In this document: positions 20,541-56,290 of the stretch, piece by piece
Position numbering within the stretch: the stretch's first letter is position 1
How the letters are laid out: each line of letters begins with the position of its first letter
NCBI RefSeq assembly: GCF_000244895.1
Contig: NZ_CM001441.1
Span: forward strand, 1,426,001 to 1,490,000
From: Desulfosporosinus youngiae DSM 17734
GTDB taxonomy: Bacteria; Bacillota; Desulfitobacteriia; Desulfitobacteriales; Desulfitobacteriaceae
Direction of reading: 5' to 3'
DNA: 64,000 nucleotides
Notes under the pieces: model-generated
What the model saw: the letters and a program-made list of their open reading frames with translations, nothing else
What the model was told of the DNA's origin: nothing
Database searches by the model: none
Translations under genes and position numbers: made by a program

Positions 20541-20820
20541 AAACATAATAAAACCGTTGAGCAAGAGAAGTACGAAGGATCGGGTATATCCAGAGAGCTG
20601 TAAATGGTGTGATGCAGCAGTACAGATTTTTCCGAATGGACTTGCGAGGGCAGCTTGAAACTGTGATACAGGAGTAGACGCTGACGGGAACCCTGTCCGT
20701 TATCAGTGGGGTGCATATGATGGTATGCAAAATGAGTGGGCGGTTTTTATCGTCAATTTGGGTGGTAACGCAGAAGTTATAAGCTTTTGTCCCTTTAGGG
20801 GGATAAAGGCTTTTTTATTT
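20541..20820 (+). promoter_or_regulatory. tryptophan T-box leader (UGG specifier)
   Basis: A tRNA-sensing leader upstream of trpB. The loop E/AGTA motif (AGAAGTACGAAGG) and a 3' strand CCGAATGGAC place TGG, the Trp codon, at 20637-20639 in the specifier position. The T-box sequence TTTGGGTGGTAACG lies at 20757-20770. The intrinsic terminator (20783-20810, GCTTTTGTCCC paired with GGGGGATAAAGGC, then T6) follows at once. Uncharged tRNA-Trp should favour the antiterminator and switch trpBA on. Confidence 0.88.
20783..20810 (+). terminator. T-box terminator
   Basis: An 11-bp stem with loop TTTA followed by TTTTTTATTTTT. It competes with the antiterminator that includes the GGGTGG bulge just upstream. 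Confidence 0.85.
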
Positions 20821-29348: not shown

Positions 29349-29663
29349 TGTTTTTCAATTCCTTTCGCTGATAAAGTTTAACCAGATAAAGTTTAAGAAT
29401 TTTATTGTAAAGGGAATCGGATCCTGAAAGAGGTCTAACTCACAACTGAATGGCTTGGCTGAAGTTGTTTCCTAGTATATCGTATATTTAGGAACTTGTC
29501 CTTGGTACATGTTGGGTTTAATAGAAAATGAAAACATTCTTGTTCTGTGTTCAGAAAGGACAGATTTGCCTATATCCTTCTCTGAAGTAAGTGCGGCTAA
29601 GGGCTGCCGCCTGAGTCTGTGACTTACGCCAGTCAAGGTGATTGGGAGACAGGAGGACGAGGA

Positions 29664-29726
29664 GACAGAGAGGGAGGGGGTTGTTGACACATTCAAAGAA
29701 TGTGTCAACAACCCCCTCCCTCTGTC
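29664..29726. repeat. large palindrome GACAGAG..CTCTGTC
   Basis: A near-perfect palindrome with arms of about 29-31 bases, loop AAA, and core GGGAGGGGGTTGTTGACAC. It carries the GACAGAG/CTCTGTC ends and is followed by TTCACCGTGCT, which also occurs at 698-708. It lies in the 537-bp gap 29349-29885, where no gene is seen. Confidence 0.75.
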
Positions 29727-29885
29727 ACACGTTCACCGTGCTGAAAGGTTTATTACCTAAGTTGCCGGAATTTTATAACGTGTAGCTTCCAAACTCGCAT
29801 AAATGCCGAAAAGTATACTTGTTATAAAGATTAAATTGCAGCGATGATCTATGACGATTAAAATGGTGCACTTAGGTTATTAAGA

Positions 29886-30677
29886 TCAAGGCTGCGGCTG
29901 CCTGTCGGTGAGCAAGAATTGGGGTACGTGGTGTACAGGGTGATTAATCATAATCAGTTCAGTTTTATAAACGGCAGAAATCGCAGCGGGCTGCAGCACA
30001 GTGTGGACTTCTCCGCAGCTCTTAATGCGCCCGTGATCCAGGAGCAGAAGCCGCTCACAGTATTGACTGGCAAGGTTTAAGTCATGCAATACCATAATCA
30101 CGGTGATTCCCTGGGAGCGGTGCCATTCTCTGACGTGTTCCATTACCAGCATTTGATGTCCGATATCTAAATAAGTGGTCGGTTCGTCAAGAATTAAAAT
30201 CTGTGGCTGTTGAGCCATGGCTCTTGCCAAGGAAACCATCTGACGTTGTCCGCCGCTTAGGTTATTAACTGGTTTGGTACGTGAGTTCCAGAGATTCAGC
30301 TTTTTCAGTACGGCTTCGACAATCTGTTCGTCTTCACGTGATAGGTCGGAAAGGGGATTTAACCATGGATAACGTCCCATGGCAACGACTTCTTCCACCG
30401 TGAAGGATAGGGGAGGGATGCCTTCTTGTTCTAAAACGGCTATGAATTTTGCTAGGTCCCGTTTCCGGTAAGAGCCAATCAAGCGATTATTTAAGAGAAT
30501 TTTCCCCTGGCTGGGTTTTAAGAAGCCGCTCATGGCATGAATCAGGGTGGATTTCCCGCTGCCGTTGGGGCCGATAATCCCAAACGTTTCGCCTGCCTTA
30601 ACCTGGAATTGGATATCCTGAAGCACGGGGATTGTTCCATACTGGTGCTGAACCTGTATTATATCGAAAAGGCTCAT
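29886..30677 (-). CDS. btuD: cobalamin/iron-siderophore-type ABC importer ATPase
   Basis: About 263 residues. Walker A GPNGSGKST (about 37-45), signature LSGGQRQMVSLARAMAQ, Walker B ILILDEPTTYLD and the switch His in VLHDLNLASQY are present, the FecE/BtuD type. The ATG at 30677 overlaps the permease stop as ATGA. A longer upstream frame is an artefact of permease coding in another frame. B12 rather than heme or siderophore is inferred from the cobalamin riboswitch upstream of the binding-protein gene. Confidence 0.9.
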   Translation of the reverse strand: MSLFDIIQVQHQYGTIPVLQDIQFQVKAGETFGIIGPNGSGKSTLIHAMSGFLKPSQGKILLNNRLIGSYRKRDLAKFIAVLEQEGIPPLSFTVEEVVAMGRYPWLNPLSDLSREDEQIVEAVLKKLNLWNSRTKPVNNLSGGQRQMVSLARAMAQQPQILILDEPTTYLDIGHQMLVMEHVREWHRSQGITVIMVLHDLNLASQYCERLLLLDHGRIKSCGEVHTVLQPAAISAVYKTELIMINHPVHHVPQFLLTDRQPQP

Positions 30678-31717
30678 GCTTGCTTCCTCCTCAATCCTTT
30701 TTTCAGTAAGTAGGCAAAAAAGGGTGCCCCGATAAATGCGGTTATAACGCCGATGGGAATTTCCCGTGAGGGAATGATGCTTCGGGCCAAGGTATCTGCC
30801 CATAATAGAAAGATTCCTCCTGCCAGTGTGGATATTGGTATCAAAATCCGATGGTCAGGGCCAACGATTAAACGCATTAAGTGAGGGACAATGAGACCGA
30901 CAAATCCGATGATTCCGGCAACCGAAACGGCTGCCCCTGTCAGCAAAGAACCAACGATCAGTACCCAGAGTTTCTTTTTTTCAACCTCCATGCCAAGATG
31001 GGTTGCCGCACTTTCACCCAGCGAAATAAGATTAAGGTCGCGTTTTTGGAGGGATAAATAGAGGAACCCAAGGGCGAGATAGGGAATCAGCATCCCCACA
31101 TCCTGCCAGGAACGGTTGGCTAAACTTCCCATCATCCAGAACACGATTTCTTGCATTTGCTGACCGGATATGGCAATCAAGAAGGAAAGAAATGCCCCAA
31201 TTAATGATTGAACAACGACTCCGGCAAGAATTAAGGTTTCACGGTCACGTTGACCGTGATGCTTAGCCAATACCATGACAAACCAAAGAGAGAGCAAAGC
31301 ACCCAAAAACGAAAAAAGCGGCGTGGTTAAGTATCCCGGCAATGAAGACTGTCGGAAAAAGAGGATTGAGGTTGCCGCTCCGAAAGCGGCACCCACAGAA
31401 ACACCTAAGATGTATGGATCAGCCAAAGGATTGCGCAGCATGCCTTGAAAAGCAACCCCTGTGGAAGACAGCAAGGCACCGATAACAAGTGCCAGGAAAA
31501 TACGGGGAAGGCGCAGGTCCCAGACGATGGCTTCCTGTGCTAATGACCAGGTTGGGGTCAAGTCCAGGAACGGAAGGTGGCTGATTAAAATTTTCAACGA
31601 TAGAGTAAAGGGTAAATGAACAGAGCCGATCATAACACTCGCTACTACAGAGAAAAGGAGGAGTGCCCAAAGAGCACCCGTCCATGCTATTCGTTTGATG
31701 TTTAGAACTTTTTCCAT
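30674..31717 (-). CDS. btuC: BtuC/FecCD-family importer permease
   Basis: A 347-residue permease with about ten helices, the BtuC/FecCD size. LPRIFLALVIGALLSSTGVAFQGMLRNPLADPYILGVS is the conserved N-terminal block, seen here from about residue 68. The GIIGFVGLIVPHLMR loop that contacts the ATPase is near 265, and GREIPIG-type residues (SREIPIGVITAFIGAPFFAY) end the protein. It overlaps btuD by 4 bases. Its binding protein lies 284 bases upstream on the same strand. Confidence 0.92.
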   Translation of the reverse strand: MEKVLNIKRIAWTGALWALLLFSVVASVMIGSVHLPFTLSLKILISHLPFLDLTPTWSLAQEAIVWDLRLPRIFLALVIGALLSSTGVAFQGMLRNPLADPYILGVSVGAAFGAATSILFFRQSSLPGYLTTPLFSFLGALLSLWFVMVLAKHHGQRDRETLILAGVVVQSLIGAFLSFLIAISGQQMQEIVFWMMGSLANRSWQDVGMLIPYLALGFLYLSLQKRDLNLISLGESAATHLGMEVEKKKLWVLIVGSLLTGAAVSVAGIIGFVGLIVPHLMRLIVGPDHRILIPISTLAGGIFLLWADTLARSIIPSREIPIGVITAFIGAPFFAYLLKKGLRRKQA

Positions 31718-31739
31718 AATAATTCCACCCTTAAGGATC

Positions 31740-31990
31740 AGCGTTTTTTAGAGTTGTGAGCTTGATTAAGATGAGAATCCTGATTTTATCCGATGACTGC
31801 CAGCCGTAAAACTCCCATCTTCTATAAGTACGAAAGCATCCAGTGGACGCTTTCGCCGAACCGCAAACTAGACAGAACAACTTTAGCGGTGAGGATGAGA
31901 TAACGGCTGCTACGTCCCTGGATAAGTTCTTCTAAGCTTCAGCTGGAGTAAGTATCCTCTTGGGCAAACTCCATCTGAAGCTAAGAATCA
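31740..31990 (-). other. structured gap between btuF and btuC
   Basis: No gene is seen here. Two hairpins are visible: CGAAAGC..GCTTTCG with inner TCC/GGA (about 31829-31855), and AGCTTCAG..CTGAAGCT with inner GGAGT/ACTCC (31935-31982). They could attenuate btuCD relative to btuF or be remnants of a mobile element. Confidence 0.4.
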
Positions 31991-32001
31991 CTTGATCGGA
32001 T

Positions 32002-32967
32002 TTACTTATAAAGGTCCGGATATAGAGCTTTGGAGATGGACTCTAATCCATCGACAATTCTCGGTCCGGGGCGGGATACCAGATTATTGTCTAAACCTAT
32101 GACACGTTTATTTTTGACAGCATCGATGGTTTGCCAACCATTACGCGCCAAAATAGTGGCTATAGCATCTTTTTGATAGTAGTCGTAGGTTTCGAAAATA
32201 ACTTGGGGATTTTTGCTGATGACTTGTTCACTATTATATTGCCCCCAGCCTTGGACATCATCGGCAATATTGATTCCGCCTGCTTTGGTCAGTAATTCAT
32301 TGAGAAAGGTACCTTGCCCGGGAGTGAAGAGGTTTTCATCCACTTCTGTCCATACCCTCAGACGGTCCGAAGTTTCTATGGAGGCTACTTTTTTGGCAAT
32401 GGATTGTTGCTTTTCTTTCATGCCGGAAACCAGCTGTTTGGCCTGCTCTTGTGTGTCTGTAAGCTGCCCGAAGGTCTCGATGCTCAGATAGGTCGCTTCG
32501 ATGGTTTGAGGATCAACGACAAAGATGGGAATGTTCAGATTACGGATTGATTCAACGGTTTTAGGGTTCGTGCCCATTATGCCCATCACAACCAGGTCGG
32601 GGTTTAAGGCTAAAATCTGTTCGAGATTGGGATTGACGCCGTCCTGGAAGACGTATTCGACCTTTTTCTGAACATCCGCGGGATAGTCATCCCATTTGGT
32701 CACGGCCAAAACGTTTTCTTCTAATCCTAAGGCAAAGAGGGTTTCAGTGGTTGCGGGAACCAGGGAAACGATCCGTTTCGGCTGGGAAGCTATAGTCACA
32801 CTGGCTCCGGAATCATCCTTTAAGGTTAAGGGATAGGTTGTCTGAGTTGTTTGCGCCTTAGGGACTTCGGCCTGTGGGTTTGACTTGGGTGTTGTGCTCC
32901 CGCAACCGGCCAGCAAGGTAAGAGCAACTATTAGGATTAGGAGTGAGCACAGCTTATGTTTAAACAT
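32002..32967 (-). CDS. btuF: cobalamin-type ABC importer substrate-binding lipoprotein
   Basis: About 321 residues. The lipoprotein signal has the lipobox LLAGC near residue 25. A class III periplasmic-binding fold follows: ASQPKRIVSLVPATTETLFA, LEENVLAVTKWDDYP and NLEQILALNPDLVV, then a C-terminal lobe with WGQYNSEQVISKNPQVIFET. It delivers B12 to BtuCD. ATG 32967 has AAAGGA 10 bases upstream. An ATG three codons earlier is inside that site. A cobalamin riboswitch precedes it, so expression should fall when adenosylcobalamin is abundant. Confidence 0.92.
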   Translation of the reverse strand: MFKHKLCSLLILIVALTLLAGCGSTTPKSNPQAEVPKAQTTQTTYPLTLKDDSGASVTIASQPKRIVSLVPATTETLFALGLEENVLAVTKWDDYPADVQKKVEYVFQDGVNPNLEQILALNPDLVVMGIMGTNPKTVESIRNLNIPIFVVDPQTIEATYLSIETFGQLTDTQEQAKQLVSGMKEKQQSIAKKVASIETSDRLRVWTEVDENLFTPGQGTFLNELLTKAGGINIADDVQGWGQYNSEQVISKNPQVIFETYDYYQKDAIATILARNGWQTIDAVKNKRVIGLDNNLVSRPGPRIVDGLESISKALYPDLYK

Positions 32968-33006
32968 AGTTATCATCCTTTCATTTCATTTAGCTGCGGC
33001 AATAGA

Positions 33007-33040
33007 ACCCCCCTTTTATCGTTTGCGATAAAAGGGGGGT
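33007..33040 (-). promoter_or_regulatory. expression-platform hairpin of the B12 riboswitch
   Basis: ACCCCCCTTTTATC and GATAAAAGGGGGGT form a perfect 14-bp stem with a 6-base loop, between the aptamer and btuF. On the minus strand it is followed by TCTATT rather than a long T-run, so it may be a weak terminator or a structural switch. Confidence 0.7.
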
Positions 33041-33113
33041 AAATCATGGTGCCTGACTGCGTTTAAGCCTATAGCGCCTTAATCCCTTTCCGCGAAGGAT
33101 ATAAGCCCGTTTT

Positions 33114-33280
33114 GATAAATAGGCAGGTCTCCTGGCTTATGGCTCTGTAGTTCCACGCCTTCCCATCATTCGACAGTGGACTTTGTGGAATACTTCCAAT
33201 TACAGTGGCGGGACCGCGTCGGTATTTCCGAACTTCCCTTTTCATCCTTCTTACAGCGTAAGTAAGGAAACCTATTTATC
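33114..33280 (-). promoter_or_regulatory. cobalamin riboswitch aptamer
   Basis: On the minus strand the B12 box AAGCCAGGAGACCTGCC (33138-33122) and the GCCACTGT core are present. The outer P1 helix pairs CCTATTTATC (33271-33280) with GATAAATAGG (33114-33123). It lies upstream of btuF. The DNA from about 33300 to 33540 has no gene. It includes a GC-rich stretch (33380-33500) I cannot assign. Confidence 0.93.
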
Positions 33281-33550
33281 AGAGGATATGCTATTCCTTC
33301 TATTGTAGTCTATCTTGAGTGAATAGCCAAGAATTTGGAGCATGAATTGCCAATATTTCTTAATTTGATTTGGCGGGTGATTTAGAGTAGCGCCGTCAAG
33401 CAGGCAGCACGGGCTTCCCTTTGTCGTTTTGAGTCCAATACACTGGTTACGTCAAGTCCCCTCGTCTAACTAAAAGACACGGGGGGGCTAACCTGCTGTT
33501 TCAGCCTAAACTAATACTATTTTTTAAGAAATAAGCAATAAATTAAAAAT

Positions 33551-33581
33551 AGAAGGGCATTGTATTTTTAAATGCCCTTCT
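33551..33581 (-). terminator. terminator of secreted-protein gene
   Basis: AGAAGGGCATT and AATGCCCTTCT form an 11-bp stem with loop GTATTTTTA. The flanks are AT-rich, and it sits just past the minus-strand stop at 33597. Confidence 0.8.
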
Positions 33582-33596
33582 TAAAAGTAACAATTT

Positions 33597-34442
33597 CTAA
33601 TAATAATATTGAATTGTCTTAGAAGCTTCTTGATTTACGCTTGAAGAAAATGTGAAGTAAATGCCCCAAGGATAACCTAACGAAGGATTGGATGTGGTAA
33701 TTTGGCTATGTCCGTAAGCAATTCTCATTTGCATATCTCTAACCTTGCCAGCTTTAGTAACTTTTACATAACCAGATCCTGAATCAGCCCAATCATACCA
33801 ATCCCAATTGGGGTCATGTCCACCAGACATAGCGAACGAAGATTGGGCGCAATTTAAGTTACTTAGGGTAAAGGGCTTGGTGCTTGTCCATGTGGCACCA
33901 GTTGTGTTTCGCTTATATCTAACTTTTTGGTATGAGCTTGAAGTTGATGTAACTAATGAGAAGTCAGGGGACCAGCCTGATCCAATTATATCTTGCAACA
34001 GCCAAAATGGTTCGCTGGACCAAGACCAGTCAAAAGAAACTGTCCAATACGATCTGTCAAGGGCAGAATCATAAGTCAGGCCGTTGTTTTCAACATTAAG
34101 GTTCACAGAAGCTGCTAAAGCAATAATCTCTGCTTCTGTGCCTTGAAAATCCTGAAGTTGCTCAATTTGAACATTACTATAGCCCATGTTTTTTAGAATT
34201 TTTTTATCAAGTTTAGACCGTTCTTTTAATCCTTTACCATAATCAAGGTTTTTAAGTTCAGTAATTTGGTTGTCGTCTAAACCCATGTCTTTTAATTCAA
34301 TATCAGATTTTTGTTTAAGTTCTTTAATGTATTGGTATTCATTAATGGATTTGCTTTCAATTACTTTTTCTTGAGCAAAAGCCGGACTTACTAACGAAAT
34401 CGAGAGAAGTAGCGTACACAACAATGCTAAGAGTTTTTTCAT
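33597..34442 (-). CDS. secreted protein of unknown function
   Basis: A 281-residue exported protein. A clear signal peptide (MKKLLALLCTLLLSISLVSP, cleavage near AFA-QE) is followed by a helical part with two similar short repeats (DMGLDDNQITELKNL about 55, NMGYSNVQIEQLQDF about 88). Then comes a Ser/Thr/Trp/Tyr-rich likely beta domain (about 128-281, with YWTVSFDWSWSSEPFWLL). The last residues are aromatic (IQYYY). I do not recognise a named family. It is monocistronic, with its own terminator and an AT-rich 380-base upstream gap without a gene. Confidence 0.75.
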   Translation of the reverse strand: MKKLLALLCTLLLSISLVSPAFAQEKVIESKSINEYQYIKELKQKSDIELKDMGLDDNQITELKNLDYGKGLKERSKLDKKILKNMGYSNVQIEQLQDFQGTEAEIIALAASVNLNVENNGLTYDSALDRSYWTVSFDWSWSSEPFWLLQDIIGSGWSPDFSLVTSTSSSYQKVRYKRNTTGATWTSTKPFTLSNLNCAQSSFAMSGGHDPNWDWYDWADSGSGYVKVTKAGKVRDMQMRIAYGHSQITTSNPSLGYPWGIYFTFSSSVNQEASKTIQYYY

Positions 34443-34825
34443 AAAATAACACGCTCCTCAATAAAAGTAGTTTTAAGATAACTGAATTTTATAAAACTAC
34501 CACCTCCTATCCGGCAATAAAGCCTTAACCCGATATTTTCCAATACCTCATAACACTCCTTTCACTTAAAGACTGCGATATAGTTTATTGTTCCTACATA
34601 CTATAGAGGGATTGAACATGTAATAAGGTTACAAAATTATTTTAATAATTTTCTTAGTTAGAAGGATTTCTTCTGATTTTCTTGAATATGTATTTATAGG
34701 TATAAAGGCTGGCCCTAGTAATAAGTAATAGATTACCCATAACCTAACAAAGCACAAAATCGTAATTTATATACTTTAAATTGAATATAAGAAGTAACTT
34801 TCGATTAAATAAGGGGGGTTAAATA

Positions 34826-35029
34826 GTGGCGATAATAACAGTTGCAATGACAATGGTGCTATTTTACATCTTGGTTTTTATTTTTGGGGAACCTATTAGT
34901 AGCGCCATTTTTCTAAATCGTGGTGGTCCAGATTCTTATTATCATCCAATATATTTGGGAATAATCGTCTTAAGCGGCTTAATTGTTGGATGTACTTATT
35001 ATCTTGCGAAATTAATTAAAGGTCTTTAA
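34826..35029 (+). CDS. small two-helix membrane protein, unknown function
   Basis: A 67-residue protein with two hydrophobic helices (about 4-20 and 42-61) joined by a loop LNRGGPDSYYHPIY. The GTG start is preceded by AAGGGGGG, a credible ribosome binding site. No family is recognised. It is divergent from the secreted-protein gene. The function is unknown. Confidence 0.55.
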   Translation: MAIITVAMTMVLFYILVFIFGEPISSAIFLNRGGPDSYYHPIYLGIIVLSGLIVGCTYYLAKLIKGL

Positions 35030-35279
35030 TTCTAAGCCGATCAGCGGCAAGGAAGTGACGAAGATCTCACCGGAATTATAGAATGTTGTCTTAGTTAATT
35101 TAATTCATAACCTTTTAGACCCAGTACCAGCGAAGCCGTCATTATCTATACTAAGAAAAAGGATGGGATTCATAGTACAAAATGAATAAACTATCCTTTA
35201 TTTCTTTACTGTATTAATAGCTTAACTATACTAAATAAACAACGTATTATTCATAGTATACAACGTAGCCAGTATGTCC

Positions 35280-35460
35280 TAGGTTGTTGATCGAACTATC
35301 GGATTAGTTGCCAGGGTGCCACGAGGGATACCGGAGCTGAAGGCGAGGATATGCTCGTTGGCATCCCATAGACAACAGCTCATGTAACAGGCTAGAGGCC
35401 CGAAGGAATATTTTCCTCCTCAGAGGAAAATATTCCTTCGGGCCAGCATCGAGCGTTGTA
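35280..35460 (+). ncRNA. candidate structured RNA ending in 22-bp hairpin
   Basis: An intergenic, comparatively GC-rich segment. It has internal stems (CGAG/CTCG; GGGATACC..GGCATCCC-type) and ends in a perfect 22-bp inverted repeat (35397-35418 with 35423-35444, loop CTCA, ends GGCC/GGCC). It matches no riboswitch I know (TPP, SAM, FMN, lysine, glycine, c-di-GMP, T-box considered). It could be an sRNA, an unknown leader for the gene at 35620, or a mobile-element end. The 35030-35280 part is AT-rich without a gene. Confidence 0.35.
35397..35444. repeat. perfect 22-bp inverted repeat
   Basis: GGCCCGAAGGAATATTTTCC plus TC, then loop CTCA, then the exact reverse complement. This is a very stable hairpin with no T-run after it. 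Confidence 0.85.
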
Positions 35461-35619
35461 ACCCTTTCCCGTCAGTCTAAATTTGAGGTTAAAGCCTTAT
35501 CGGAAGTAAGTTTATACAACCTCTAAATACCAAGGTTTAAAATAAAAGATTTAATCTGTAACCTTTTGTACCACTTTGCCCCTCTATATATCAGAACAAA
35601 AGAAAGAGGGGCGATTGTA

Positions 35620-36054
35620 ATGAAGAAACTAATACCTATACTTCTAACTATCTTTATGATGTTACTGGGCGTACAAGTGGCTTTGGGATCTGTGGTAGTC
35701 AAAATGAGTGGGAGTGGTGTGATAAGCCCAGCTGCATACCAATTAATTTCGGATGGACAATGCCATATTGTTAACAACGGTAATGGGACAATCGGGATTA
35801 CTGGTTCAACATCAACCAACTATGTGGTTAAGGAAATAGGGGTAATTATTAGCTTGCAATATTACTCCGGCGGAAAGTGGTCTACATTAAGTAGCTATAG
35901 TTACAGTAACCCTAATTCGGATTATGTTTTTGGAGGTAAGGGAATTAGTGTACAAAGGGGATATAACTACAGGGTAACGGCACAACACACAGCATTGAAT
36001 GGTACTGTAAACGAGAGCGGTCAATCATACTCGGAAAGTATCTATGTTCAATAA
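35620..36054 (+). CDS. secreted DUF6147-like protein
   Basis: A 144-residue exported protein. The signal peptide is MKKLIPILLTIFMMLLGVQV. The mature part is rich in Ser, Tyr and Gly and looks all-beta: SLQYYSGGKWSTLSSYSYSN, then GKGISVQRGYNYRVTAQHTA. This resembles a small-secreted-protein group I recall as DUF6147, with no known function. The start is ATG 35620 (GAGGGG upstream). The longer frame begins in non-coding sequence. The 36060-36306 gap has no gene, only imperfect repeats. Confidence 0.65.
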   Translation: MKKLIPILLTIFMMLLGVQVALGSVVVKMSGSGVISPAAYQLISDGQCHIVNNGNGTIGITGSTSTNYVVKEIGVIISLQYYSGGKWSTLSSYSYSNPNSDYVFGGKGISVQRGYNYRVTAQHTALNGTVNESGQSYSESIYVQ

Positions 36055-36306
36055 GTTTTAAATGCAACCAAACTAGGAACTAAATAATCAAAGCCTTTAG
36101 TAACTCTTTTTCAGCACCCTTCGTAAGAAAACGAGATGCGATGCGGCTTTCAGGGGGGCTTATTTTCACTAAAACCTGTGAATCCGCTTAAATCAAGGAC
36201 TTTTGACTAAGGGTGAATGTCAGTTAGCAAAGGGCTGTCCTGAAAACATTCAAGGTAGCCCCTTGTGAAAGCACAACAAAACAAGCCTGTCCATTTAGAT
36301 GGGTTT

Positions 36307-37012
36307 TTTATTTCTGAGAATTCTCATCAGAGACCTTTCTCAAATTTAAGCTATTACCTTTTTTCGCGCAGCAGAGAAACTTTACAACTCGTATTTTCCA
36401 TGAATTAACCTTCCTTCGCGTGATTCTTTCAGCGTTTGTCTCATTAAAATAATTGCTTCTTACATCAATAAAATGCTTTTTATCTTTCAAAATGTGGTAA
36501 ATAGCTAGGTGCACACCGTGTGCAACCGCAATTAATGCTCTGTTGCTCCGCGCCTTGCAGCAATTTTACAGTATTTTGCATAATAATAACTGTCCTTATG
36601 CCGTATGCGGCTCTAGCATATTCAACGATAGTTGCTTTCAAGAATTTATTTCCTTTACAGATACGTGTACTTTTTTAACGGCACTTTCGTTGCATTGAGG
36701 CACAATCCCTGACCATGATTCAAAAATGATCTGCATTTTTTAAACTGCTCCATAACAATTCCGACTTCTGATATAATACGTTCCGCGCTGCGGATGCCTA
36801 TTCCATGCATTTCATTCAGGGGTTCTATTTGTTCCTTTGCGAATTCTGTTTTTTAAGGACTTCATCGTTCAGTCTTCCGATTTCTGTTCCAAGAAATCCA
36901 ATATGACGTAGTTGATGCCCCAACATCTGTTGCTGATGGATTCCAATGCTCCCCTTTAAGGCACGCTGTAGTTCAGGAATTTTACTTTTGCCCTTTCCCT
37001 TTGCCATCAAGC
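36307..37012 (-). pseudogene. decayed IS110-family transposase (C-terminal half)
   Basis: Minus-strand fragments in several frames line up with IS110/IS116/IS902 transposases in order: MAKGKGKSKIPELQRALKGS and HQLRHIGFLGTEIGRLNDEV (36840-37010), GIRSAERIISEVG (about 36760), KFLKATIVEYARAAYGI (about 36600-36650), then ARRGATRALIAVAHGVHLAI and YHILKDKKHFIDVRSNYF (36430-36560). The N-terminal RuvC-like half is missing and there are several frameshifts, so it is inactive. No intact element ends were identified. Confidence 0.8.
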
Positions 37013-37220
37013 TTAATTTCTTTTCCTCAGGATCTCCAGGATGGAAAGCTTGACGATCTAATCAGGTCTCCACGGACTTGGTTAGTTCCAATCACCTTAC
37101 GACCTTATACCGGCTCCTTTATTGTAGTACTGTCAAAACTTTTGATGACAAACCGTTTTCATACGATGTGGCTGATGTTTCATCATGATTGTCTGTCTCA
37201 TAATGATCTAAAACATGTCA

Positions 37221-37262
37221 AGAGAGTAAAATTAGCAAGGACTTCTGCTGATTTTACTCTCT
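37221..37262. terminator. hairpin between IS110 remnant and anti-sigma-like gene
   Basis: AGAGAGTAAAAT and ATTTTACTCTCT form a 12-bp stem with an 18-base loop, followed by CATTTTTTTT on the plus strand. Confidence 0.75.
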
Positions 37263-37329
37263 CATTTTTTTTATATAGTAAAAAGAGTACCATTTCATAT
37301 AAATTAAACTGTGAAGACAGCCCTCTTCT

Positions 37330-38082
37330 TTAGTTAATAGATTGTGCCATCTTTGTAATCTCTTCTTCGGTTATTTCTCCTTTTATTTGTAGTATCAAAC
37401 CCCTTGATTGCCAATTCAAAGTATTTATACCGTTCTTTCTTATGAATAAGATAGCGGGGCTACCGTTAACTGTTAGATCTTTTATAACAGTATCATCTGT
37501 ATCATATAATGTTCCACGTGAAGCTCCATTAGAACTAATTTGTTGGCTAAAAACGATTACGCCGTCATTATGATTATATTCGATAGAAATCTGATATACT
37601 TCTGCACTTAGAGATGCAATGACAACCTTTCTAGTATTAGCTCCATGGGGGAGATAGCTTGGGGTGGCTAACTTAAAAGGGATCAAGGCTTGCGCCTCAG
37701 ATAGAGTAACTTCTTTTTCAAAAATATCCCCTATATCCTCTATTTTTGGTACACCAGGGTCGATAGCCGTATAAGTTTCAGTTTTATTTTGTGTTGTTTT
37801 TCCAACTATATAATTAAAAAATTTAGCGATCTTCCCCCCTACGGCATTTGCATTGCTAGGATATAAGAAGTTCATAGAACCGATTGAAATGACAATTACA
37901 GCAGCCACCACAATTCTAGTTCGATTTGGAGAAGTTTTTCCGATTACTTGATTTTCTTTTAATAGTTTACTTTTAATCTTCTGCCATTGGTCCTCAATAT
38001 CTGGAACCTCAATATTGGCATCTAAATCTTTTGACAGCTGACTTTTTATTAGTTGGTCAAGTTCTTTTTCAGATAATGCCAT
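37330..38082 (-). CDS. DUF4367-containing anti-sigma-like membrane protein
   Basis: A 250-residue protein with a soluble N-terminus (1-60, ELDQLIKSQLSKDLDANIEV), one membrane segment (about 58-76, IVVAAVIVISIGSMNFLYPS) and an extracellular domain with SEAQALIPFKLATPSYLPHG, the DUF4367 hallmark. Such proteins are encoded next to ECF sigma factors and act as their anti-sigma or sensor partner. GGGAGG at the end of the sigma gene serves as its ribosome binding site. That sigma gene is now split by an IS21 element, so this protein may have lost its partner and native promoter. Confidence 0.78.
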   Translation of the reverse strand: MALSEKELDQLIKSQLSKDLDANIEVPDIEDQWQKIKSKLLKENQVIGKTSPNRTRIVVAAVIVISIGSMNFLYPSNANAVGGKIAKFFNYIVGKTTQNKTETYTAIDPGVPKIEDIGDIFEKEVTLSEAQALIPFKLATPSYLPHGANTRKVVIASLSAEVYQISIEYNHNDGVIVFSQQISSNGASRGTLYDTDDTVIKDLTVNGSPAILFIRKNGINTLNWQSRGLILQIKGEITEEEITKMAQSIN

Positions 38083-38088
38083 TAAGTT

Positions 38089-38235
38089 TCAACCTCCCAT
38101 ATTTTCATTCATATCCTTATTGATAAGTTTCCTAAATGCTTCCTTTGCCCTATGTAATCGTACTTTCGTATTTGAGAGCTTATTGCCTAGTAAATCCGCT
38201 ATTTGTTGCACTGTTAAGTCAGCATAATATGTTTG
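38089..38235 (-). pseudogene. ECF sigma factor, 3' part (interrupted by IS21)
   Basis: Encodes YYADLTVQQIADLLGNKLSN and TKVRLHRAKEAFRKLI, the region 4 helix-turn-helix of an ECF sigma factor. It continues exactly from the 5' part at 41329-41718 once the IS21 element (38230-41328) and one copy of the 9-bp duplication are removed, giving KYYADLTV. It overlaps the ribosome binding site of the DUF4367 gene. Confidence 0.88.
38221..38229 (+). repeat. target site duplication AGCATAATA, left copy
   Basis: The nine bases AGCATAATA directly precede the TG end of the element and recur exactly at 41329-41337. Confidence 0.85.
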
Positions 38236-38380
38236 TTGTAAGATAAAAATACCGAAAGTTGCAAATGAAAAATCCAGAAAGTTGCAAGTGGAAATTCCAT
38301 AGTATTGCAAAATCCATTGCAGGCATTAACCCAAACCTCTATCCTTGTATCTGACCAAAGAATGCAAGGAGGAAAGGAGA

Positions 38381-39910
38381 ATGCTCACAATGGACAAGAT
38401 ACATACTATCAGATTTAGATTTCACGTGAAAGGAGAGAAAATTTCCCAAATTGCACAGGATATGAACCTAGACTGGAAGACCGTACGGAAGTATGTCGAT
38501 ATGACCGACTTCAACGCGCCAGCCCCTAAACCCGCTTCTGAAAAGCTGGTTTGTCCTAAACTAGATCCTTACAAAGCTACCATTAATCGATGGCTTGAGG
38601 AAGACAAGCAAGCACCACGCAAACAGCGGCATACTGCCAAAAGAGTCTTTAACCGGCTTAAACAAGAGTTTCCTGATTTTAACTGCTCCTATCGAACCGT
38701 CGCCGCCTATTATGCTGTTAAACATCAGGGGTTATTCAGCCAGGCTAAAAAGGGGTATTTGCCCTTAGATCATCGTCCCGGCGAAGCGCAAGTTGATTTC
38801 GGGACCGCCGATTTTTACGAAAACGGGACGCGGAGGACCGGGAAATATCTTGAAGTATCGTTTCCTCACAGCAATAAAGGGTATCTGCAGTTGTTTTATG
38901 GGGAAAACATGGAATGCCTTCTGGAAGGAATGGATACCATCTTTCGTCACATTGGAGTGGTCCCGGCAGAGGTATGGTTTGACAACACCAAAACCATCGT
39001 GACCAAGATCCTTCGGGGCGGCCGTGCTCTCACAGAGCGCTTTGAGCGGTTCCAGGAGCACTATGGCTTTCAGAGTGTGTTCACAAACCCTGGAGAGGGC
39101 CAGGAAAAAGGTAATGTAGAAAATAAAGTAGGTTACCATCGGCGCAATCTCCTGGTTCCGATACCCCGTTTCCTTGCGCTGGCTGGTTTCAACCGGCAAC
39201 TTCTTAAGCAATGCGATGACGATGCAGCCAGAGAGCACTACCGCCATAATGAAACCATCGAAGAGCTATTCAAGGAAGATCTGTTGCACTGTCATCCCCT
39301 CCCTAACATTGACTTTGACTTAAGCGGTAAGCAGAGCATCGTCACGAATAATTGGGGGAAATTTTATCGGCATAAAGGTATGCACGAATATTCGGCTTCC
39401 CCGAAGCATGCCAACGAAGTGGTCAACTTGAAGCTCACGTCCTCACACATCATTGTCATGGATGAAAATTACCGCGAAATCGTCAGGCACCGCCGACTAT
39501 ACGGTAATACCAAGCAGCAGAGTATGGAGTGGCTCCCCTATCTTAAACAGCTTTCCATCCGTCCACGTGCCTTGAAATATTCCGGTGTCTACGACATGAT
39601 GCCGCCTTCCCTGAAGCAGTTTCTGGAAAAATGCTCTCATTCAGAAACCGGAAAGGTGCTTAAAGTACTGGCCGAACTTACGGATCGAACCGGCTTTGAC
39701 AGTGCTCTGAATACAATTAACCAGGCTCTTACTTACGGAGCATCCGATGCGGATAGCCTGCAGAATCTTTACCGCCGCCTTTATGCGGATGTTCCAGAGC
39801 TGCCCCCCATGCCGACCGGTCCCCAAATGCCCAACATCGGTCAGATGTCAGCGAACCTCATGGCTTATGATGTCTTTCTGGGAAAAGGGGGTGTCATGAA
39901 TGCTCGATGA
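38381..39910 (+). CDS. istA: IS21-family transposase IstA
   Basis: About 509 residues. The N-terminal helix-turn-helix is ISQIAQDMNLDWKTVRKYV. The DDE integrase core is seen in RPGEAQVDFGTADF (first Asp), EVWFDNTKTI (second Asp) and EGQEKGNVENKVGYHRR (Glu). The C-terminal domain has SPKHANEVVNLKL. ATG 38381 has AGGAGG 7 bases upstream. An ATG at 38390 is also possible. It overlaps istB by 11 bases, the usual IS21 arrangement. No frameshift is visible, so it should be active. Confidence 0.94.
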   Translation: MLTMDKIHTIRFRFHVKGEKISQIAQDMNLDWKTVRKYVDMTDFNAPAPKPASEKLVCPKLDPYKATINRWLEEDKQAPRKQRHTAKRVFNRLKQEFPDFNCSYRTVAAYYAVKHQGLFSQAKKGYLPLDHRPGEAQVDFGTADFYENGTRRTGKYLEVSFPHSNKGYLQLFYGENMECLLEGMDTIFRHIGVVPAEVWFDNTKTIVTKILRGGRALTERFERFQEHYGFQSVFTNPGEGQEKGNVENKVGYHRRNLLVPIPRFLALAGFNRQLLKQCDDDAAREHYRHNETIEELFKEDLLHCHPLPNIDFDLSGKQSIVTNNWGKFYRHKGMHEYSASPKHANEVVNLKLTSSHIIVMDENYREIVRHRRLYGNTKQQSMEWLPYLKQLSIRPRALKYSGVYDMMPPSLKQFLEKCSHSETGKVLKVLAELTDRTGFDSALNTINQALTYGASDADSLQNLYRRLYADVPELPPMPTGPQMPNIGQMSANLMAYDVFLGKGGVMNAR

Positions 39911-40667
39911 TGAGCTCAGAGATTGCTGCAAGAATCTGAAGCTGAGCCGCAATCTAGCGGATATGGCCCAGACAACGCAGGGTAATACCCACCAGGACTA
40001 TCTGCATCAATTGCTGGTTGCAGAGCTGAAAAACCGCGAACGAGGGCGGACCGAAAAGCTGATTAACAGTGCCGGTTTTTATAGCATCAAAACCTTTGAC
40101 CGATTCCGCTTTGATGAAATTAATCTCCCCTCCCAATTGACACCTGAAAGTCTGAAGTCCCTTGATTTCATTAGCGAAAAAAAGAACATCATTATGTACG
40201 GCAGAACAGGAACAGGAAAAACCATGCTGTCTACTGCACTAGGCGTTGAGGCCTGCCGGAAAGGAATTCCCGTTAAGTTCTACCGAACTGCGGCTTTGGT
40301 CAACCAGCTTTCGGAAGCTAAGAAAGGTGAAGTCTTGGGACTGCTGCTGAAAAAGCTGAGAAAAGCCTCTGTCATTATTCTTGATGAATGGGGTTATGTT
40401 CCTTATGACCGTATCGGTGCCCAGTTACTCTTTGACTTTCTCTCCGAGATCCACGAACAGAAATCGATTATACTGAACACGAACCTGGAATTTTCACGCT
40501 GGGTTAACGTGCTTTATGATGAGCAAATGACGGCTGCCCTGATCGGCAGGCTGATGCATAACTGCTATCTTCTTCTGTTTCCCGGAGAGAACAACCGGTT
40601 AAGAGAATCCAGTATCCATGAAATCTACGGCTCAATAGCACCGACTGTTCATAAGGAGGATAACTGA
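39900..40667 (+). CDS. istB: IS21-family helper ATPase IstB
   Basis: A 255-residue AAA+ ATPase that assembles on DNA and directs IstA to target sites. The Walker A MYGRTGTGKTML (about 99-110) and Walker B VIILDEWGYVPYD (about 158-170) are present, followed by SIILNTNLEFSRWVNVLYD (sensor region). It is DnaC-like. The start overlaps the istA end. The gene is intact. Confidence 0.94.
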   Translation: MLDDELRDCCKNLKLSRNLADMAQTTQGNTHQDYLHQLLVAELKNRERGRTEKLINSAGFYSIKTFDRFRFDEINLPSQLTPESLKSLDFISEKKNIIMYGRTGTGKTMLSTALGVEACRKGIPVKFYRTAALVNQLSEAKKGEVLGLLLKKLRKASVIILDEWGYVPYDRIGAQLLFDFLSEIHEQKSIILNTNLEFSRWVNVLYDEQMTAALIGRLMHNCYLLLFPGENNRLRESSIHEIYGSIAPTVHKEDN

Positions 40668-40668
40668 C

Positions 40669-41049
40669 ATGATCATAACCCGTAAAATGCTAAATGAGAT
40701 AGAACAAAACTACAGAAAGTCGTTCCCCCAAGAATTCAAACAATATGTGCTGGTAAACTATGCTGAAGAGCCGTTCCCTTACGAATACAGCGAGCAGGAC
40801 CTTTATGAGCACATCCGGCGTGATATCCGCGACTATGACCAGGGGAACTTGGACATTGCCGTCAAGAGTCCATCCGAACGCTGGCAGGAAGAGCGTGACT
40901 ATCTGCAAACTCTCTGTAGAGAGCAATCCTCTAAGATACGCGATCGTGAAGACTATATCCTGGAGCTAGAACACGTGCTTGCGGAGAATGGCCTGGAAAC
41001 GCCCAGAATGGCAAACCATCGACTGGAGAAAGGAGATGTGTCTTTCTAA
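40669..41049 (+). CDS. IS21 third gene, unknown function
   Basis: A 126-residue hydrophilic protein encoded inside the IS21 element, starting 2 bases after istB with AAGGAGGA upstream. It is therefore co-transcribed with the transposition genes. It is acidic and helical: an N-terminal KMLNEIEQNYRKSFPQEFKQ and a C-terminal coiled-coil-like region with REQSSKIRDREDYILELEHV. It has no recognised domain, no Cys pair and no membrane segment. It could be an accessory transposition factor or a passenger gene. Confidence 0.75.
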   Translation: MIITRKMLNEIEQNYRKSFPQEFKQYVLVNYAEEPFPYEYSEQDLYEHIRRDIRDYDQGNLDIAVKSPSERWQEERDYLQTLCREQSSKIRDREDYILELEHVLAENGLETPRMANHRLEKGDVSF

Positions 41050-41328
41050 ACCAAGAAGATAACCAATGATGTTGGTTGGGGTAGAAGTCCACTAATATCC
41101 AATTAAAATTTAACCTCAAGATTGATCTGTGGATATTGTGGATACTGTGGATAACTATCCTGACCAAATATGTCTGTTTTAAACTTCAATGTACCCAATT
41201 AATGCCTGCAATTCATAGATTATCCTTTAATGGGTATGAAACGGAACTTGCAACTTTGTGGAAAATGGAGTTGCAATACTATGGAAAAATAGTTTGCAAC
41301 TTTCATGAAAAATGTCTTGCAAAAAACA

Positions 41329-41337
41329 AGCATAATA
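41329..41337 (+). repeat. target site duplication AGCATAATA, right copy
   Basis: An exact copy of 38221-38229, adjoining the CA end of the IS21 element. Confidence 0.85.
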
Positions 41338-41718
41338 CTTATATACTAAGATTTCCATATCTTTTTGCTTTAATTTTTTAAGGACATTGCCAACATCCTC
41401 TTTTAGTTCTATATCAAATTCCTTACTATCTTGTAGCCTGTTTAAGTGAAATTCCGTAATTGAGGTAATCGTAGTATTGTTTTTATTATTTAGCATTCGT
41501 TTTGCTTCATTTAATGCAATTGAAGTTACCCACGAAGCAAATTTATCCTTAGAATTTAATTGATGAAGTTTCTTATAGGCTATCAAAAATGCCTGTTGGA
41601 CTGCATCCTCGGATATATATTTATCTTTAGTATAAGTATAAACTGTTTGGTAGACTTTTTTATAATGTTGCTTAACAAGGATCTCGAATATATTTAAATT
41701 CGCACCGGAAAATGACAT
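41329..41718 (-). pseudogene. ECF sigma factor, 5' part (interrupted by IS21)
   Basis: Encodes about 130 residues of an ECF sigma factor: FEILVKQHYKKVYQTVYTYT, YISEDAVQQAFLIAYKKL, KFASWVTSIALNEAKRML (regions 2.1-2.4) and the start of region 4 (KQKDMEILVYKYYA). The frame then runs into the IS21 end and stops 33 codons later, so region 4 (-35 binding) is lost. The ATG 41718 has AAAGGAGGG. The remainder is at 38089-38235. Confidence 0.9.
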
Positions 41719-41981
41719 TGTCAGCCCTCCTTTGAATGTATAATTCGAGGAATTATTAAATAAATCCTTTAAATGAAGAATAATTAATTAATGTAATTAC
41801 TTACCATAAGCCACTAGAGTTGCATTAAAATGATTTATCTATGTCAAGACGATAAATGTAGCATATCCACCCAGTAATCTTAACCCTTATTTGGTACATA
41901 CACGCAAAGACTATTTTCAACACTGAGGAATTTGGCCACCACTTAGGGTGTAGTCCATATCTGCATTTATTGGTTTTGATC

Positions 41982-42119
41982 TTAAGGAATCTCTGTGCTA
42001 TAAATTAGGTCATCCAGGTCTCCAGAAAGTACTCGATTCATCGTTTCTTCGTAGACTCGTTCCAAATCTTGTCGCTGACGTCTTTTTGTGGTCTTGCCTT
42101 TCTTGTGAAGTTTTTGAAC
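41982..42119 (-). pseudogene. C-terminal fragment of an unknown protein
   Basis: A minus-strand frame with no start encodes about 45 residues, basic then acidic (KLHKKGKTTKRRQRQDLERV, then RVLSGDLDDLIYSTEIP and stop). It ends where the group II intron remnant starts on the other strand. It could be the tail of a disrupted mobile-element or host gene. I do not recognise the family. The DNA 41719-41981 holds no gene. Confidence 0.3.
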
Positions 42120-42565
42120 AGAGGAGGTGAAGGGATCATATTACTCAATGATAAACTGATGGCTGAAAGCTGGAGTTATGGAAAACGGAAGGAATACAGG
42201 AGAGCGAAGTTGGTACTCCTCAAGGAGGATTATGCTAAGCTTTGCATAATCCTTTTCTTTGCATAAGGCGGAGTTATGTGGATCAAGTGTAAATATTGAA
42301 ATACACCCCGTCAAGAAATTGAAAGACCTCGAATGAAACGAATGATGGCAATGAGAAGAAGAACACTCGCCGTATGTCTTGATTGCCACGCCAAAATCCA
42401 CTTGGGTAATATGACAGCAAAAGACTTATAAGCGCTCATGTCGGCTGATAGTTAATCGCTGGCGAGCGGAGTGCACAGGAAACTTGCATGCTCCGTTCTG
42501 AGAGGGGCATTTGGAAAAGTACTATTTTAAAATAGTAACTCGTTGGGTGCCTACTCTACTTCAAG
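42119..42565 (+). mobile_element. 3' remnant of a group II intron with maturase tail
   Basis: The fragment MKRMMAMRRRTLAVCLDCHA and KIHLGN (about 42330-42410) is the HNH/zinc-type C-terminus of an intron-encoded reverse transcriptase, with a preceding in-frame stop. Next comes a hairpin GAGCGGAGTGCA..TGCATGCTCCGTTCTGAGAG, the characteristic structure after the maturase gene. The domain V/VI-like end is GTGCCTACTCTACTT near 42550-42563. The reverse transcriptase body and the 5' intron half are missing, so it cannot splice or move. Confidence 0.65.
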
Positions 42566-42599
42566 TCCGGTTCCGTGAGAAGTTGAGGGTGGGATTCCC

Positions 42600-42730
42600 C
42601 AGCTTGACTCGACTTCCCCACGCCAGCTTTGTAGGCCTTACCGTCCCTACCTGCAATGGGTTCACTCCTCGTAGGCGAAGCTGCCTGGCTTTAAGGTCTG
42701 CGGATTGTTCAGGTTATTTTTAGAGGATCT
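42600..42730 (+). repeat. dispersed GC-rich repeat, copy 1
   Basis: The segment around TGCAATGGGTTCACTCCTCG is similar over about 105 bases to the minus strand of 55995-56098 (shared TGCAATGGGTTC, GGTCTG, GGATT, TCTTTA-like blocks). It is not a gene. It may be intron-associated or a structured RNA. Confidence 0.55.
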
Positions 42731-42871
42731 TTTTTAGAGTAATCGTTAACCATCGCATAAATAAGTTGAACGGTTTTTGTAAACAATCATTAGTGTAACT
42801 AAAGATATTTACGTTATAATGATACGTATAAATCAATTTAGGTCAAATCAGATTAGGGAGGGAGATCGATT

Positions 42872-55892: not shown

Positions 55893-55989
55893 TGGTATCC
55901 TCCTGACTGTAATTCTTTATCCGGAGATTTGTAAGAGACAGTTTAGATTAGGTTTATCATACTGTAATCACTTTTTATAGTCTACCCCG

Positions 55990-56235
55990 AAAAAGACCCT
56001 AAAGACATGCGGAAGAATCCCCAGACCCGCAAGCAGGGCAGATTCGTCCACAGAAGCGAACCCATTGCATGTAGAGGCGGTAAAAGCCCACAAGCCGGTG
56101 CGGGAAGACGGAGCCACAGGTTCACATCAGGTATTACCCTGAGGTTTGGCGGAGTCCCGCACCGGCGAGTGGGCGAGCCTCGGAATGCTGCGGTGAGCGG
56201 ATGTGGGCGAAGCTGCCCGGCCCGGGAGTACTCTC
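55990..56235 (-). repeat. dispersed GC-rich repeat, copy 2
   Basis: This intergenic DNA is more GC-rich than its surroundings. The minus strand of 55995-56098 resembles 42624-42730 (shared TGCAATGGGTTC). The plus strand near 56203 (TGGGCGAAGCTGCCCGGC) resembles 42672-42689 (TAGGCGAAGCTGCCTGGC). An open frame across it is not convincing as a gene. Confidence 0.5.
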
Positions 56236-56290
56236 TTTTCATCCTCTGATGGTAATGTGACAGCGGCATGAGGGTCTATTTGCCTAACAA

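Follow-up and report, generated by a model that had tools for sequence, protein, structure and literature searches.

What is lost when an insertion sequence (IS) lands in the gene of a sigma factor, a broad stress regulon or the control of something more local? This question is raised by a 64,000-nucleotide stretch of the Desulfosporosinus youngiae DSM 17734 genome (contig NZ_CM001441.1, positions 1,426,001 to 1,490,000; hereafter, the window, whose own numbering is used below), in which an IS21-family element interrupts a minus-strand gene for an extracytoplasmic function (ECF) sigma factor at 38089-41718. We conclude, with a probability of about 0.8, that the insertion breaks the sigma factor of a small mobile cassette and likely silences one local target. 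In the mechanism that we propose, a foreign element transposed once into the sigma gene and, as the sequence shows, duplicated 9 bp. The sigma factor would be the regulator of a laterally moved cassette that also includes the gene of a DUF4367 protein and a convergent gene for a 144-residue exported protein, and its loss would leave the latter gene, the cassette's own target, silent.

The element is 3099 bp long, starts with TGTTT and finishes with AACA, and the copies of AGCATAATA on its two sides are identical over 9 bp. Flank lengths of 4-13 bp were tested and the flanks were equal at 9 only; for a given 9-mer, the odds of such a match arising by chance are about 1 in 260,000. The flanks were joined by script with one copy of the duplication retained, which gave a single 173-residue frame reading ...LVYKYYADLTVQQ... 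without frameshift or stop. The gene is broken after codon 130, where the region-4 helix-turn-helix begins. The element ends, the flanks and the family matches agree, and indicate an IS21-family transposition into an ECF sigma gene that is ordinary in kind. It is highly improbable that the split gene is an assembly artefact. The sequence was judged from the assembly, but the element is single-copy in a 5.66-Mb one-contig genome (DNA search), so there is no other copy to misjoin, and transposition leaves just such a perfect duplication on the two sides; we rejected the artefact on these grounds.

The closest homologue, at locus L003 of genome G026, is an uninterrupted orthologue with 165 of 173 sigma residues identical (95%) and no gaps. 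The target site is single there, reading TATTATGCC, and its counterpart here is TATTATGCT (sigma strand). In each of the ten closest loci (L003-L012), the alignment passes over the join without a break. Seven of nine more distant loci from the same search matched, one of them (L013) only to residue 124, short of the join. Among the close homologues we found no intact orthologue that failed to continue across the two fragments. The preliminary description of this DNA had proposed a complete element with a 9-bp duplication inside a sigma gene, a reading frame restored when the element and one copy are removed, and a sigma factor deprived of its -35-binding region, and all of these points are borne out.

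Region 2 was recognized in the N-terminal part by PF04542 (51.4 bits, cut-off 24) and TIGR02937 (52.7 bits, cut-off 42.9), and the frame of this part continues into the element to 41227, gaining 33 element-encoded residues. The C-terminal fragment alone scored 24.2 bits against PF08281 (cut-off 25.7), and its homologues run on through region 4. With region 2 split from the region-4 helix-turn-helix, no working sigma factor should be made. The system could still be partly working if the C-terminal part or the DUF4367 gene were expressed from a promoter in or at the end of the element, or if the region-2 fragment acted by itself, for example by binding the DUF4367 protein, and we regard this as unlikely. 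The C-terminal part is indeed open from a TTG within the element, and fusion promoters of IS21-family elements are described in a part of PMC9330008. However, the region holds 12 promoter-like sites versus 12.4 expected from shuffles, the left end of the element has no minus-strand promoter-like site, and the element genes are oriented against the DUF4367 gene. An outward promoter at the left end was thus rejected, with no site there and no excess of sites over shuffles in the region.

The DUF4367 gene downstream is an uninterrupted frame, as the preliminary description had it, and its protein has one apparent membrane segment (by eye). A homologue adjoins the sigma gene in all ten closest loci (split over two frames in L006), and the protein is probably the anti-sigma factor of the adjoining sigma. 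Homologues of the 144-residue protein were found in eight of these ten loci as fetched and in neither L007 nor L008, which stop near the place; L011 has a second, partial match that is divergent from sigma. The 144-residue protein has an export-type N terminus (by eye) and no match in Pfam, and its gene is given as 162 residues from an upstream TTG in the open reading frame (ORF) list. Between the two genes, a 1089-bp stretch (36104-37192) is absent from the cassettes of G026 and G012. Pieces of it match IS110-type loci of the same genome in three frames, and it is a probable decayed IS110 relic, which was not listed in the search with Pfam Transposase_20 and whose two ORFs matched nothing in Pfam.

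The cassette of G026 lies on contig C10 with 94-96% nucleotide identity and different flanks, and the core genes beside the D. youngiae cassette correspond to contig C11 of G026 at 82%. Measured against G026, the two sigma parts have a synonymous divergence (dS) of 0.196 and 0, DUF4367 has 0.163 and the 144-residue gene 0.065. These values are far below those of six core genes (0.91, 0.93, 1.13, 1.14, 1.47 and 1.59), which indicates that the cassette moved laterally. Synteny was examined in four of the 28 relatives in the genus list. In all four, the cassette and the syntenic core genes are on different contigs, and core synteny jumps from about 29.0-29.5 kb to about 42.8 kb of the window, with only 14 bases between in G026; a 13.2-kb segment carrying the cassette is therefore missing there. 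The segment also holds a cobalamin riboswitch (33105-33290, minus strand) and an ATP-binding cassette transporter with ABC_tran, FecCD and Peripla_BP_2 parts. A search for direct repeats at its ends returned just 7-8-bp matches with E above 1. Just inside one end, 42462-42559 matches a group II intron (RF00029, 52.2 bits, gathering 40), and no adjoining ORF of reverse-transcriptase size was seen in the ORF list.

Which genes would the sigma factor control? GTAACC is invariant upstream of the 144-residue gene in nine of nine cassettes, with CTCTA 13-14 nt past a run of T, and in several relatives the same motif lies upstream of sigma, directed away from it. The TGTAAC-type upstream element resembles the -35 elements of Bacillus ECF sigma factors. 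Across 29 genomes of the genus, the exact pattern GTAACCTTT-N14-16-CTCTA had 54 sites, versus 5 for the reversed pattern as a control. At least one site was present in 11/11 genomes with a close sigma homologue (E <= 1e-30, a limit that we set) and in 3/18 without (Fisher P = 1e-5), the latter being G019, G021 and G025 with five sites. When only sites more than 5 kb from sigma were counted, the figures were 9/11 versus 3/18 (P = 0.0013), and 9/11 versus 3/13 (P = 0.012) among genomes at least 90% complete.

The genes at these sites were checked for 30 of the 54 sites, which with two larger loci made 41 rows in the script listing. An ORF with a ribosome-site-like stretch followed in 28 rows and was lacking in 13. 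By eye, about 17 of the 28 ORFs (some sites are listed twice) start with an export-type or membrane stretch; six are homologues of the 144-residue protein, and among the others some appear to be in the wrong frame. Relatives whose sigma is intact have motif sites ahead of several genes, of which many encode exported proteins. From this conservation and co-occurrence we infer that the sigma factor probably directs transcription from TGTAACCTTTT-N13/14-CTCTATA promoters. AGG-TT-N-CC--GAATT, a different sequence conserved ahead of the sigma gene, was rejected as a regulon promoter, since of its five genome matches only the one at sigma resembles the conserved form.

In the D. youngiae genome the exact pattern occurs twice, at 35558-35586 ahead of the 144-residue gene and at contig position 5394478, where the script found no ORF. 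The insertion is therefore predicted to act directly on one neighbouring gene, a local effect and not a broad regulon loss; in addition, the DUF4367 gene would be cut off from the upstream promoter. The preliminary description had suggested that this strain may have its stress regulon switched off. On that view, the interrupted sigma would be a core stress regulator and a broad regulon would be lost. ECF sigma factors often serve stress responses and the gene is clearly broken, but the sigma belongs to an accessory, laterally moved cassette, its close homologues occur in just 11 of the 29 genus genomes (this one included), and the genome has only the two exact sites. Nothing in the analysis pointed to a stress role, and we consider the loss of a broad stress regulon very unlikely; the findings are better explained by a local export module that moves laterally.

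The insertion appears to be recent. Compared with G026, synonymous and nonsynonymous changes number 13 and 5 in the N-terminal sigma part, 0 and 3 in the C-terminal part, and 24 and 11 in DUF4367, so that the eight nonsynonymous changes in sigma match the 7.9 expected at the DUF4367 rate. Assuming equal rates on both lineages and a dS of 0.16, eight or fewer changes would have a probability of 0.015 if sigma had been unconstrained during 30% of the time elapsed after the split, and of 0.07 if during 20%. The period without constraint would thus make up no more than about 20-30% of the time that has passed since the two copies diverged. Without an excess of nonsynonymous change, and with no frameshift or stop, the insertion is estimated to be recent relative to the cassette, although not datable in years. 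The earlier claim of a recent insertion without decay holds in this relative sense, the fragments being undecayed compared with G026.

Several observations weigh against the reading of a broken cassette regulator with one silenced target. The transcriptional effect is a prediction from sequence, and the anti-sigma role of DUF4367 is putative. A different ECF sigma might also recognize this promoter, as the genome has 14 sigma matches, the broken gene included (the next best is 36% identical). The genomes are related, which makes the motif P values too small. The motif itself comes from sequence next to sigma, which means that 26 of the 54 sites (those within 5 kb) are linked to sigma by construction. 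The five sites in the three sigma-free genomes are unexplained, and one of them (G019) precedes a homologue of the 144-residue protein. The own-genome search was exact, with zero mismatches allowed, and weaker sites may exist; the divergent site upstream of the broken sigma is absent here (best 6 mismatches of 14). Finally, dS comes from one genome pair and few sites, and the C-terminal sigma part has three nonsynonymous and no synonymous changes.

Table 1 Features of the interrupted sigma gene, its cassette and the IS21-family element (window positions).
Feature	Positions	Strand	Basis
13.2-kb segment carrying the cassette	29535..42756		Missing from the syntenic place in 4/4 relatives
Predicted sigma-dependent promoter of the 144-residue gene, GTAACCTTTT-N14-CTCTA	35558..35586	+	Conserved in 9/9 upstream regions
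144-residue, probably exported protein, convergent with DUF4367, predicted sigma target	35620..36054	+	Homologues in cassette loci
DUF4367 protein, 250 residues, putative membrane anti-sigma factor, intact	37330..38082	-	PF14285, 68.6 bits
C-terminal fragment of the sigma gene, 46 codons plus stop, region-4 helix-turn-helix	38089..38229	-	ORF list, homologues
Target-site duplication, left copy AGCATAATA	38221..38229		Abuts element end
IS21-family insertion sequence, complete	38230..41328	+	Ends and abutting duplication; NF033546 and NF038214 above cut-off; one copy in genome
Repeats at the left end, two units of 23 nt, probable IstA sites	38235..38280	+	Sequence; spacing compared with IS5376
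istA, DDE transposase	38375..39910	+	ORF list (opens at 38345 there), NF033546, IS5376 IstA chains 8q4d/8b4h
istB, AAA+ helper ATPase	39900..40667	+	PF01695, NF038214, IS5376 IstB chains
Third ORF, 126 residues, all-helical model	40669..41049	+	ORF list, homologues in related elements
Right terminal repeats, three units, 23-nt spacing	41248..41322	+	Sequence
Target-site duplication, right copy AGCATAATA	41329..41337		Abuts element end
N-terminal fragment of the sigma gene, 130 codons, with region 2	41329..41718	-	ORF list, PF04542, homologues
Possible sigma-gene promoter in a conserved upstream stretch	41742..41768	-	Own-genome pattern search, 5 matches, control 0

Where did the element come from? 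Other istB-like genes of the genome are at most 36% identical to that of the element. In a comparison of the element DNA with 60 genomes (own included), nine matched, and the best long match elsewhere was 79% over 2.3 kb; G014, of the same genus, and a contig of Desulfosporosinus sp. BRH_c37 had matches of equal extent (query 1-2269, 2284 bases, 79%). A GTDB-based collection contained 23 loci that encode relatives of the element, the best IstA (82%) being from Desulfosporosinus sp. BRH_c37, and all 3314 matching records of a plasmid collection were below 60%. Given its single copy, the distant istB-like genes and the low identity of its relatives, the element probably arrived from outside the genome; no donor was found among the 60 genomes or in the GTDB-based and plasmid collections.

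All three genes of the element are open. IstA scored 245.1 bits against NF033546 (cut-off 160) and matched IS5376 IstA in the PDB with E about 1e-17, with no Pfam family above cut-off; its D, D and E residues, which we take to be catalytic, align with those of IS5376 IstA by eye. IstB scored 211.4 bits against NF038214 (cut-off 200) and 182.3 bits against PF01695, and matched IS5376 IstB with E = 3.8e-30. The ends are of the IS21 type, TG..CA with at least two 23-bp-spaced repeats each, and a third ORF follows istB where the family definition has two ORFs only. Because the transposition genes and the ends are those of the family, we treat the element as a variant IS21 carrying an extra gene.

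Target duplications of the IS21 family range from 4 to 8 bp. Both ends could be placed in 15 related elements, of which seven had an abutting repeat of 5 bp (L036), 6 bp (L033, L034, L045 and L046), 7 bp (L040) or 8 bp (L049), and eight had none, one of the latter finishing at a contig end. L045 and L046, from differently named metagenome-assembled genomes, are inserted at one and the same site, and L047 shares their right flank but differs on the left, which may reflect a collapsed repeat or contamination.

A homologue of the third ORF lies 3' of istB in six of the 23 related elements; the remaining ones, some of them cut by contig ends, had no match. Searches with the third ORF matched 4/60 and 7/398 genomes, own included in both. 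An istB match adjoined in ten of 13 inspected loci (L068 and L078 are one place) and was lacking in three, one of which was without the third ORF as well. More distant elements matched in the N-terminal part only. The third ORF had matches below cut-offs only in Pfam and NCBIfam (NF033850, 18.8 bits, cut-off 40) and weak matches only in PHROGs. Its predicted structure is all helical (mean predicted local distance difference test score 83.5, predicted template modelling score 0.55), and Foldseek returned eight PDB matches, none with E <= 0.001.

Elsewhere in the window, a T-box leader is located at 20548-20797 on the plus strand. The stretch at 55981-56279 has many matches in G006 and several in G026, with identities of roughly 73-100%, and is likely an interspersed repeat of the genus.

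If the sigma factor of the cassette is indeed lost, the strain is a natural knock-out in which the regulator has been removed and an orphan target left. The useful yield would be an ECF/DUF4367 module with its predicted promoter and gene set, a strain in which the module has naturally lost its function, and the third gene that some IS21 elements carry. We tentatively suggest two linked novelties, with somewhat less than even confidence. One is a lineage-specific ECF module (sigma, DUF4367 and the 144-residue protein) that would move laterally within the genus and control scattered exported proteins via the promoters described above, and the other is a three-gene IS21 branch whose third gene would be a conserved part of the transposition unit and may relate to the variable duplication length. 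Our literature search returned nothing on DUF4367 under that domain name, nor on LCxxNW.

Compared with known systems, the event resembles insertions that inactivate regulators in general, with simple gene inactivation and a target duplication, and does not differ from them in kind. As described in parts of PMC10122671 and PMC11208146, IS5376 of Geobacillus stearothermophilus shares with the element an IstA-like DDE transposase, an IstB-like AAA+ helper, end repeats separated by 23 bp and a direct target duplication. In contrast, the D. youngiae element has a third ORF after istB and a 9-bp duplication, while the repeats that flank IS5376 insertions are of 5 bp (PMC10122671). The sigma factor and its partner are similar to SigV/RsiV and SigP/RsiP of Bacillus, as far as a part of PMC8844934 describes them, in apparently having regions 2 and 4 only and in an adjacent, co-oriented gene for a partner with one apparent membrane segment; they differ in that the partner here has DUF4367, a convergent gene encodes the 144-residue exported protein, and the cassette appears to move laterally.

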